This document shows, one piece after another, positions 23,489 through 41,900 of a stretch of DNA of 64,000 nucleotides. A program made the position numbers and the translations under genes. Source of the DNA: Streptomyces sp. CB02056 (GTDB lineage: Bacteria; Actinomycetota; Actinomycetes; Streptomycetales; Streptomycetaceae); contig NZ_LIPD01000007.1 in NCBI RefSeq assembly GCF_001905545.1, positions 62,001 to 126,000 of the forward strand, read 5' to 3'. How positions within the stretch are numbered: the stretch's first letter is position 1; the number at the start of each line of letters is the position of its first letter. The notes beneath the pieces were generated by a model that saw only the letters and a program-made list of their open reading frames with translations, was not told where the DNA came from and did no database searches.

Positions 23489-24637
23489 TCAGCGCTCGCC
23501 GACCAGCTCCTCCAGCCGCGAGACCAGCGCCGCCGGGCTGGGCCGGGAGGCGATCTCCGCCTGCACCTCGCGTGCGGTCCGCCGGTAGTCCGGCACGTCG
23601 AGCAGCCGCAGCAGGCCGTCCTGCACGGCGGCCGCGGTCGCCTCGTGCGCGGAGCAGGCCAGTCCGACGCCCCGGGCCGCGATCACGGCCGCGTTCGCGG
23701 GCTGGTCGGCGAGCCGGGGCACGACCAGCTGCGGGACGCCGTGGACCAGTGCGGTCAGCGCGGTGCCCGCCCCACCGTGGTGGACGATGGCGGCGCAGGT
23801 CGGCAGCAGGGCGCTGAGCGGCACCCAGCCGGCCACGCGCACGTTGTCGGGCACCGGGCCCAGGGCCGCCGCCTGGTCCGCCCCCATGGCGAGGATGAGC
23901 TCGACGTCCAGCCCGGCGCACTTCTGCAGGAACGCGGCGAGCTCGCCGAGCTCGCCGGACAGTGGCAGGACACTGCCCAGGGTCAGGCACACACGTGGCC
24001 GGGACGGCGCCGCCAGCGCCCACTCGGGCAGCAGTCGGCTCTCGTTGTAGGGCACGTAGCGCATCGACCACTCAGCCGCGTCGTCGTGGCCCCCCATGCT
24101 CGGCGGCCGGACGTCGATCGTCGCGGCCGCAGCGGCCGACTCGGCCAAGCCCAGCCTGGCCCGTGTGGGTTCCAGGTACTGGGCTATGGAATGGCGGTAC
24201 GTCACCGCTTGTTCGTCGCTGCCCGCCCAGGCCAGCCGAACGCTCTGCTCCACGTAGGGGACACCGAGCGCGGTGGCCACCAGGGGTCCGGCGCCCTGCT
24301 CCAGGGTGGACAGCACGAGGTCCGGCCGGAACTCCTCGGCGACCTTCAGCAGGCCCTCGGCCATCTCCTCGCCGAACAACCCCAGCCCGCCGCGTCGGGG
24401 CCGCGGTTCGCCCGGCGGCGTCATGTTGATCGCGTGGCTGGCCGCCATGAACTCGCCGAACACGTCGCGGCCGGGGCACACGTCGACCGCCGGGAGTCCG
24501 GCCGCGACCAGCGTTTCGGCGGCCTGGCCGTTGTTGGCGACCAGGACCTCGTGCCCGGCGGTCCGCAGCGCCCAGGCCAGTGGGACAGTGGGCAGGAAGA
24601 GGCCGGAGCCCGGGGCGGCCATGGACAGTACTCTCAT
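23489..24637 (-). CDS. GT-B glycosyltransferase (macrolide/EryCIII-like)
   Basis: A 382-aa GT1-type enzyme transferring a sugar from an NDP-sugar to a small-molecule acceptor. The C-terminal donor-binding signature HHGGAGTALTALVHGVPQ (about 284-301) and the following PRLADQPANA are clear. The N-terminus [21 protein letters not shown] shows the usual G-x-x-x-P acceptor-domain start. Its ATG overlaps the aryB stop as ATGA, and GGAAGG is 9 nt upstream, so it is cotranslated with the NRPS genes. Glycosylated arylomycins carry a deoxyhexose on the aromatic core, so it probably decorates the peptide. No deoxysugar genes are in the window. Confidence 0.87.
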   Translation of the reverse strand: MRVLSMAAPGSGLFLPTVPLAWALRTAGHEVLVANNGQAAETLVAAGLPAVDVCPGRDVFGEFMAASHAINMTPPGEPRPRRGGLGLFGEEMAEGLLKVAEEFRPDLVLSTLEQGAGPLVATALGVPYVEQSVRLAWAGSDEQAVTYRHSIAQYLEPTRARLGLAESAAAAATIDVRPPSMGGHDDAAEWSMRYVPYNESRLLPEWALAAPSRPRVCLTLGSVLPLSGELGELAAFLQKCAGLDVELILAMGADQAAALGPVPDNVRVAGWVPLSALLPTCAAIVHHGGAGTALTALVHGVPQLVVPRLADQPANAAVIAARGVGLACSAHEATAAAVQDGLLRLLDVPDYRRTAREVQAEIASRPSPAALVSRLEELVGER

Positions 24638-38970: not shown

Positions 38971-41900
38971 ATGGCGAATGACCGTCCCACCCGCCCCCAC
39001 CCGCTCAGCCCCGCGTATGTGATCTACACGTCCGGCTCGACCGGACTGCCCAAGGGCACGGTGATCCCGGGCGAGAACCTCGTCAACCTGCTGACGGACT
39101 TCCAGGAGCGGCTGGACTTCGGCCCCGACGACCGCATGCTCGCGGTCACCACCTTCGGCTTCGACATCGCCAACCTGGAACTGCTGCTGCCGCTGCTGTC
39201 CGGCGGCGAGCTGGTCCTCGCGGGGCAGGACGGCGCGCACGACCCGCAGACGCTCAAGCAGCTGATCACCGACGCCGGAGTGACGGCCGTCCAGGCCACG
39301 CCCACACTGTGGCGCAGCATGCTGGACCACGGCCCGGACGGCCTGACGGGACTGAAGGTGCTGGTCGGCGGCGAGGCGCTGCCCGAGGGCCTGGCCCGGG
39401 AACTGGGCGAGGCCGCCGCCGAGGTCACCAACGTCTACGGCCCGACCGAGACCACCATCTGGTCGACGGCGGCCACCGTCGACCCGGCGCTTCCCGGCCG
39501 TCCGCCGATCGGACGCCCGCTCGCGAACACCCGCACCTACGTACTCGATCGCGCGCTGCGCCCCGCGCCCACCGGCGCCACCGGCGAGCTGTTCATCGCG
39601 GGCGCCGGCGTGGCCCGCGGGTACCTGAACCGGCCCGGGCTGACCGCCGAACGCTTCGTGGCCGACCCCTTCGGCCCGCCCGGATCCCGGATGTACCGCA
39701 CCGGCGACCTGGTCCGCTGGCGCGACGACGGCAGCCTGGAGTACCTCGGCCGCACCGACGGCCAGGTCAAGGTCCGCGGATTCCGGATCGAGCTCGGCGA
39801 GGTCGAGCACGCGCTCACCGACCACCTCGAGGTGGCCCAGGCCGCCGTCGTGGTCCGGGACCTCGGCTCCGGCGGGCCGGCCCTGACCGGCTACGCCGTG
39901 CCCGTCCCCGGCACCGCTCCGGACCCGGCCGCGCTGCGCGACCACCTCGCCCGCCGGCTGCCCGGCCACATGGTCCCGGCCGTCCTGACCGTGCTCGACG
40001 TGCTGCCGCTCACCCCCAACGGCAAGTTGGACCGCAAGGCACTTCCGACCCCCGACCTCGGCCCGGCCGGGCCCGGGCGCAGGCCGCGCACCCCGCAGGA
40101 GGAAATCCTCTGCGAGCTGTTCGCCGAGGTCCTCGAAGTGTCCCGGGTCGGGCTGGACGACGACTTCTTCCAGCTCGGCGGCCACTCCCTGCTCGCCACC
40201 CGCCTGGTGAACGCCCTGCGCTCGCGGCTGCGCGTGGAGATCCCGGTGCGCACCCTCTTCGAGGCGCCCACCGTCGCCGCCCTCGCCGCCAGGATCGACG
40301 GCTCGGCCGGCGCGCGCACGCCCCTCGCCCCCGCCGCACGACCCGCGCGGATCCCGCTGTCCTTCGGGCAGCGCCGGCTCTGGTTCATCAACCGACTGGC
40401 GGACGACGGCTCCGCGTACCACATGCAGAGCGTGCTGCGGCTGCGCGGCGAACTGGACCGCGCGGCGCTCGCCGAGGCCCTCGCCGATGTGGCCGCCCGC
40501 CACGAAGCCCTGCGCACCGTCTTCCCCGAGGTCGACGGCGAGCCCCACCAGCTCGTCCTCGACCCGCGGGAGGCCCGTCCCGTCCTGACCGTGACGGACA
40601 CCGGCGAGGCGGACCTGCCCGGCCGGCTGCGCGCCGCCGCGGCCGAGGCCTTCGACCTCACCCGTGAAGCCCCCCTGCGCGCCCACCTGTTCGCACTGTC
40701 GCCGACCGAGCACGTGCTGCTGGTCGTCCAGCACCACATCGCCGCCGACGGCTGGTCCCTGACCGTGCTCGCCCGCGACCTCGCCCAGGCCTACCGCAGC
40801 AGGAGCCGCGGCCAGGAGCCAGGTTGGCGTCCGCTCCCGGTCCAGTACGCGGACTACACCCTGTGGCAGCGCGAGGTCCTCGGCGGGCCCGACGACCCGG
40901 CGAGCGTCCTCGCGGTGCAGACCGGCTTCTGGCAGGACGCGCTGCGCGCACTGCCCGAGCAGACCGTGCTGCCGACGGACCGGCCGCGCTCGCGCGAGGC
41001 CGGCTTCCACGGCGAGACGGTCGGCCTCAGCCTGGACGCCGAACTCCACCAGCAGCTGCTCGACCTCGCCCACCGGCACAACGCCAGCCTCTTCATGGTG
41101 CTGCAGGCCGCGCTGGCCGCCCTGTGCACCCGGCTCGGCGCGGGCACCGACATCCCGATCGGCTCGCCCATCTCGGGACGAACGGACGCCGCCCTCGAGG
41201 ACCTGATCGGCTTCTTCGTCAACACCCTGGTACTGCGCACCCGTACGTCGGGCGACCCCCGCTTCACCGAGCTGCTGACGGCGGTCCGGGACAACGCCCT
41301 GGCCGCCTACGCCCACCAGGACCTCCCGTTCGAGCGCCTGGTCGAGATCCTCAAGCCCGAGCGCTCGCTCTCCCAGCACCCGCTCTTCCAGGTCTTCCTC
41401 GCGCTGCAGAACACCCCCGACGCCGAGCTCCGCTTCGCCGACCTGGACGTGACCCTGGCCGAGGAGCCGCTGCCGTCGGCCAAGTTCGACCTGGCGTTCA
41501 ACCTCTCCGAGCGGTTCCGCGAGGGTCGGCTCGCGGACGGCGTCCAGGGCACCGTCGAGTACCGCACCGACATCTTCGACCGCACCACGGTCGAGACCGT
41601 CGTCGAGCGGCTGACCCGCTTCCTCCGGGCCGTCGCGGCCGACCCGCGCCGACGGATCGGAGCCGTGGAGATCCTCGGCGAGGACGAACGCCGTCGGCTG
41701 CTCGCCGGTACCCCCGCGCTGGTCACCGGCGCCGAGGAGGTGCTGCACGTCCGGTTCTCCCGCACGGCCGCGGAGCACCCCGACGGGGTCGCCCTGCGCG
41801 CCGGGGAGCGGGAGTTGACCTACCGGGACGTGGACCGGCGGGCCGACGCGTTGGCCCGCTCCCTGACGGCCCGGGGCGTCGGACCGGAGAGCCGGGTCGC

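Follow-up and report, generated by a model that had tools for sequence, protein, structure and literature searches.

Adenylation (A) domains of nonribosomal peptide synthetases (NRPSs) are usually treated as indivisible. The closest described departure, in the sections of PMC11342130 devoted to it, is the corallorazine synthetase Crz1/Crz2, in which one glycine A domain lies on two genes and is active only when both proteins are mixed. The loop between the core motifs A2 and A3 is known, in the relevant part of PMC11355689, to take up insertions in TioN and MarQ, and the pertinent passages of that source and of PMC8949500 give a2-a3 only as an insertion site. Here we describe an A domain interrupted between A2 and A3, whose two parts are encoded by the genes aryB and aryD on opposite strands of a 64,000-nucleotide stretch of Streptomyces sp. 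CB02056 (contig NZ_LIPD01000007.1), the whole of which is called the window below. The two parts would together form the A domain of the glycine-specific module 3 of an arylomycin-type assembly line.

The interrupted domain and its recurrence in relatives

The gene names aryA to aryD are labels taken over from an earlier reading based on the sequence only. The features that make up module 3 are the following.

24634-26427, minus: aryB, 597 amino acids, GTG start at 26427; condensation (C) domain and N-terminal third of an A domain (A1-A2)
25081-26394, minus: C domain of module 3 in aryB, HHxxxDG motif present
24700-25023, minus: N-terminal A-part in aryB, PF00501 positions 1-114; the tail after it has a predicted local distance difference test score (pLDDT) below 50
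38971-51843, plus: aryD, 4290 amino acids; C-terminal A-part (A3-A10) and carrier (T) domain, then C-A(with methyltransferase)-T-C-A-T-C-A-T-thioesterase
38986-40026, plus: C-terminal A-part in aryD, PF00501 positions 156-384 and AMP-binding_C; glycine-type pocket
40105-40296, plus: carrier domain, a profile match, putative loading target of the split A domain

The domain order of aryD beyond the first carrier domain was assigned by eye, backed by matches to three condensation domains and to three more A3 motifs.

The two open frames jointly hold one full set of A motifs, recognized by eye, and neither half is completed on its own chain, AryB stopping after its A-part and AryD opening at A3. 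As originally predicted, aryB stops after the A2 core, with a tail of 12 residues past TPRLL, and aryD starts 18 residues before the A3 motif YTSGSTG. The linker lengths given in that prediction, 33 residues in the intact module 1 of AryA and 12 + 15 = 27 across the split, agreed with a recount by eye; the first residues of AryD resemble, again by eye, the linker end of the same intact domain. The 384 positions of the Pfam model PF00501 are covered by AryB from 1 to 114 and by AryD from 156 to 384, followed in AryD by AMP-binding_C and the carrier domain. Structural tiling was compared on three solved A domains, on which the AryB and AryD halves align without overlap: 29-148 and 184-524 of 1amu, 450-589 and 597-955 of SrfA-C (2vsq), 14-147 and 164-519 of 5u89. 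This complementary coverage bears out the claims that a single A domain is distributed over the two genes and that nothing structured is missing between its parts. As judged from these alignments, the halves tile one A domain, the interruption being confined to the variable linker.

The same break was sought in relatives through AryC, the cytochrome P450 of the cluster, which was searched for in five overlapping genome samples. Sequences at least 60% identical to AryC were found only in the genome of the window, in S. canus 299MFChir4.1 (80%), in Streptomyces sp. RP5T (77-78%) and in a Streptomyces genome assembled as a single 8.2-Mb contig, G961 (61%). Matches were obtained in 1 of 394 genomes at E<=1e-120, in 2 of 70 at a looser cut-off, in 2 of 248 (both at 55% identity), in 3 of 296 (two at 55%) and in 3 of 392; the second match among the 70 is G061, whose P450 is 44% identical and whose locus was compared by open frames and by BLAST against the ary proteins. 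Among the 80 of 127 relatives kept in a contig scan, only L002 and L003 are above 42%, and a plasmid search with AryB found no match at 60% identity or more.

The break is present in all four species having an AryC at least 60% identical, which answers positively the comparison proposed with the original prediction. AryB ends at the same place in all four, and the start codon of AryD is visible in three. In S. canus AryB (L082) ends LLVDGPRATEGIPR and AryD (L002) has its own start; in RP5T AryB (L083) ends as in S. canus, and AryD lies on a different contig, whose edge falls within the N-terminal head; in G961 AryB ends GTPWLLV and AryD has its own start. The AryD heads and AryB tails vary in length and letters beside conserved flanks, as expected for an unconstrained break point; the alignment of the linker itself is not evidence, because MAFFT set some tails and heads differently between rows. 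The start of AryD before A3 is more than a chance feature: a pattern combining a ribosome-binding site with an ATG shortly before A3, narrow enough to miss S. canus, where AryD starts further upstream, was matched in 3 of 195 Streptomycetaceae genomes, including that of the window; the other two matches sit in open frames reaching back past A2 to the edge of the locus.

The ratio of nonsynonymous to synonymous substitution rates (dN/dS) was calculated by the Nei-Gojobori method with our own script, taking the C-parts of domains 1 and 4 only to A8, after which a methyltransferase follows; for RP5T, modules 4-6 and the thioesterase were left out, except for the condensation domain of module 4. 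Between S. canus and RP5T the A-parts of AryB and AryD have values of 0.223 and 0.162, the intact A domains 1 and 2 having 0.371 and 0.339 in their N-parts and 0.129 and 0.153 in their C-parts. Between the window and S. canus the values for the two halves (0.402 and 0.281) are both in the upper part of the intact range, which is 0.204-0.411 for five N-parts and 0.174-0.301 for five C-parts. The comparisons with G961 gave 0.443 and 0.304 for the window (intact N-parts 0.335-0.725, C-parts 0.248-0.459) and 0.417 and 0.235 for S. canus (0.329-0.750 and 0.201-0.418). Purifying selection acts on the two halves as it does on the intact A domains of this assembly line, and neither half evolves faster. 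The A motifs are kept in all four species, as seen by eye on the alignment. In the trees, the AryD A-parts of all four form one clade (99/99), and a single origin of the AryD end is therefore indicated; the AryB A-parts of the window, S. canus and RP5T also form one clade (98/95).

An unsplit orthologue was looked for by an A-part search over 394 genomes of the family, which returned 65 genomes at E<=1e-150. Ten loci were examined, nine of which, from other genomes, have A2 upstream in the same frame and are intact A domains. Two loci (G549:C334 and G552:C257) encode P450s 55% identical to AryC next to another NRPS line, whose modules are intact; this line was discarded as an unsplit orthologue, its modules resembling the split module no more than other modules do, and it apparently represents another P450-tailored NRPS family.

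The assembly line and its surroundings

The pocket of the split domain, extracted by motif anchors (positions 278 and 299-301 by eye), reads D-I-L-Q-V-G-V-I-W in the window, S. canus and G961. This code fits the glycine consensus, and the claim that module 3 is glycine-specific holds to this extent, the glycine-type pocket being kept in the AryD half. The six pocket codes of the window, also read by anchors, fit Ser-Ala-Gly-Hpg-Ala-Tyr (Hpg, 4-hydroxyphenylglycine), and module 3 is therefore needed; together with a P450 and methyltransferases, this series corresponds to the arylomycin core. The anchor extraction missed module 1 of AryA in S. canus and G961 and the last module of AryD in G961, one AryA row of G961 was misanchored, and RP5T was outside the run.

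The P450 points in the same direction. The best PDB match of AryC is 7ayx at 538 bits, the next one scoring 287, and the AryC of G961 matches 7ayx at 835 bits over 409 residues. We assume 7ayx to be the published AryC structure, although a full-text search for the code gave no confirmation. That structure is cited, in the passage concerned and without a PDB code, in PMC11376024. Two features of an arylomycin cluster, the six-module code line and an AryC-type P450, were thus found in the window.

In the sections of PMC11479970 on these clusters, arylomycin, globomycin and siamycin clusters are reported together only in the strains VB1 and CA-278952, arylomycins are detected by mass spectrometry in VB1 extracts, and S. 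canus 299MFChir4.1 is credited with arylomycin and siamycin clusters. G961 contains a siamycin-type lasso core peptide at 7265763, with two large adjoining polyketide synthase (PKS)/NRPS genes. Because of these genes, the siamycin-like core and the split arylomycin-type cluster, G961 probably belongs to the species of VB1 and CA-278952; globomycin genes were not confirmed by name. A direct test is possible, since a strain with probably the same cluster type is reported to make arylomycins.

The NRPS cluster of the window consists of two divergent units, aryA-aryB-glycosyltransferase on the minus strand and aryC-aryD on the plus strand. Its remaining features are:

26424-36989, minus: aryA, modules 1-2 (Ser with methyltransferase; Ala), with an epimerase-type domain after each; methyltransferase and epimerases by eye
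36990-37640, no strand: intergenic region between the aryA-aryB and aryC-aryD units, about 650 bp; S. canus and G961 show this divergent arrangement too
37641-38882, plus: aryC, cytochrome P450, best PDB match 7ayx
23489-24637, minus: EryCIII-like glycosyltransferase, coupled to aryB by ATGA

The two overlaps predicted for aryB are both present, GTGA joining the stop of AryA to the start of AryB and ATGA the stop of AryB to the start of the glycosyltransferase. Being on opposite strands, aryB and aryD are presumably carried by two transcripts; a sigma-70 scan of the aryA/aryC intergenic region detected no promoter, a scan which says little in Streptomyces. Copies of the glycosyltransferase, 78-79% identical, directly follow aryB in S. 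canus and RP5T, and no match was found within 160 kb around the cluster of G961; this pattern suggests a glycosylated arylomycin branch.

Downstream of aryD, a frame of 77 amino acids (51840-52073), whose start overlaps the stop of aryD in an ATGA, reads by its motif like an MbtH-like protein. It is followed at 52070-52880 by a HmaS-like start, Hmo scraps and the last 153 residues of HpgT, which run together in different frames and are collapsed Hpg-supply genes. In S. canus and G961 this position is occupied by long homologous frames. The source genome has full-length HpgT- and HmaS-like genes at other places, the best of which share 62% and 70% identity, respectively, with their G961 counterparts. 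The genome is also rich in NRPSs, with 84 condensation-domain matches in 9.5 Mb.

A probable two-protein domain and its alternatives

We consider it quite probable that AryB and AryD come together, with no covalent bond between them, as a single A domain that activates glycine. AryB would supply the condensation domain and the first A subdomain (A1-A2), and AryD everything from A3 to A10, with the ATP-binding core, the pocket for the substrate and the C-terminal subdomain, as well as the carrier domain (T). Produced from divergent units with a common intergenic region, the two proteins would join non-covalently, their halves folding into an active A domain able to load glycine on the carrier domain of AryD, where the C domain of AryB would condense it; the split interface would double as the AryB-AryD contact. 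Association, adenylation activity, stoichiometry and product are all inferred here. Amino-acid activation would depend on both proteins, a point on which the purifying selection acting on both halves bears only indirectly. The original prediction had left open whether module 3 is assembled from two polypeptides or inactive; selection and conservation favour assembly over inactivity. The balance tips only slightly towards the broader proposal that, across the arylomycin family, the A2/A3-split domain persists as an enzyme that always needs two proteins, with the split replacing a docking domain and fixing the order of AryB and AryD. On geometric grounds, the opposite strands would be explained if aryA-aryB had long ago been inverted with respect to aryD.

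Several points weigh against reconstitution or reduce its reach. The structural models neither support nor refute association: that of AryB is moderate (mean pLDDT 66.5), with block means of 68-93 over residues 461-570 of the A-part, folding to about residue 573 and pLDDT below 50 in the tail (576-597), and the AryD half, modelled alone, reaches a mean of 61, with values below 50 at residues 1-34 and over most of 156-263; alignments of five rows make this weak evidence. The dN/dS of the AryB A-part between the window and S. canus lies near the top of the intact range, so that its constraint in this comparison is average to weak. In a 105-column tree the AryB A-part of G961 falls outside the other three, a single clade not being rejected (p-AU 0.117), and its AryB condensation domain (L116, about 7188569-7190533) shares 84% identity with module 2 of AryA in the same genome and 52% with the AryB of the window; for this reason the domain was probably converted from AryA module 2, while the break in the A domain stayed. 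The link of G961 to VB1 and CA-278952 is drawn from gene content. The arylomycin-type cluster of the present strain may be impaired, since the Hpg-supply genes beside aryD are remnants, even with other Hpg-type genes in the genome. Finally, a neighbouring NRPS of G961 includes an A domain that shares 60% identity with the AryD half and might act in trans.

This last domain is one of the arguments for a reading in which neither half is active any longer, both being relics, and another A domain supplies glycine to the first carrier domain of AryD; trans-loading is known in other assembly lines, as described in part of PMC8949500, and the source genome has NRPSs in abundance. A relic AryB A-part would, however, be free to decay, whereas the A motifs are kept in both halves in four species and both halves evolve at rates no higher than those of intact A domains, which makes this explanation improbable. 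Slightly less probable still is that this strain has lost the function of module 3 along with that of the entire cluster, as the remnants of HmaS, Hmo and HpgT could suggest. The three NRPS frames, aryA, aryB and aryD, are all open over about 25 kb, full-length HpgT- and HmaS-like genes occur elsewhere, and the split, found also in S. canus and G961, where the Hpg genes are longer, does therefore not stem from the damage to these genes.

Two further explanations deserve next to no credence. The assembly of the strain is in 34 contigs, and an assembly or sequencing error could have cut one gene in two, an outcome that the original prediction named as fatal to it; the same break and layout recur, however, in independent assemblies, and the single-contig genome G961, which shares the break, makes such an error very unlikely. 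The ATGA coupling of aryB to the glycosyltransferase, which follows aryB in S. canus and RP5T too, also speaks against it. Covalent joining, through a split intein, a trans-spliced RNA or an invertible DNA segment, draws on the fact that inverting 24.6-39.0 kb would bring aryA, aryB and aryD into one order and strand. Set against this geometry, the 9-12 and 15 extra residues are too little for intein halves, no Rfam match at gathering scores was found in 20-42 kb, no 11-mer, direct or inverted, is common to 24401-24900 and 38751-39020, none of the best 25 (by length) of 188 inverted pairs lies at the junctions, and the divergent split orientation is found in all three genomes where both ends are visible.

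If non-covalent reconstitution by AryB and AryD is confirmed, AryB/AryD would be the first known case of a functional A domain cut between A2 and A3, and a rare kind of naturally split enzyme. If stable, such a natural split would demonstrate that another protein can contribute the first subdomain. NRPS engineering would gain a cut site tried by evolution, as well as control of peptide synthesis by mixing subunits, and annotators would be alerted that the incompleteness of module 3 in such clusters is only apparent.

Comparison with known systems

The original prediction knew of no established family of natural A domains cut between A2 and A3. Widened to the general statement that natural split A domains are unknown, this does not stand, given the functional corallorazine split; as to the site, an A2/A3 split over two genes was absent from the literature matches listed, in a search that left most subscription journals outside. 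The passages on arylomycin in PMC8788784, PMC4519256, PMC7998270 and PMC11376024 mention no split A domain. The original arylomycin cluster paper is cited in the corresponding part of PMC7998270, and the break may already be visible or described in that paper or in the one on the AryC structure.

The cluster of the window resembles the arylomycin cluster BGC0000306 in its predicted Ser-Ala-Gly-Hpg-Ala-Tyr line and its AryC-type P450. It differs from it, as do those of S. canus and RP5T, by the glycosyltransferase after aryB.

In the portion of PMC8949500 on SyrB1/SyrE, a module also extends over two proteins, with the cut between whole domains, unlike that of AryB/AryD, which falls inside one domain. 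The likeness to TioN and MarQ, as far as they are presented in the part of PMC11355689 cited above, lies in the use of the A2-A3 loop as a permissive site. There a methyltransferase is inserted in one A domain, whereas AryB/AryD have a break in the chain and no insert; the module is accordingly not an interrupted A domain of the TioN type, consisting of two chains without an inserted auxiliary domain. With Crz1/Crz2, as covered in the sections referred to at the outset, AryB/AryD share a single glycine A domain encoded on two genes. In Crz1/Crz2 the cut is at A8/A9, with an integrated methyltransferase and with A9-A10 on the adjacent gene; in AryB/AryD it is at A2/A3, without an insert, and the genes are on opposite strands 14 kb apart, so that a split of the corallorazine type, after A8 with a methyltransferase, does not describe them. 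Because the functional corallorazine split precedes it, the AryB/AryD split is of a known kind at another site: the split A domain as such is known, and what sets this one apart is the A2/A3 position and its conservation in relatives.

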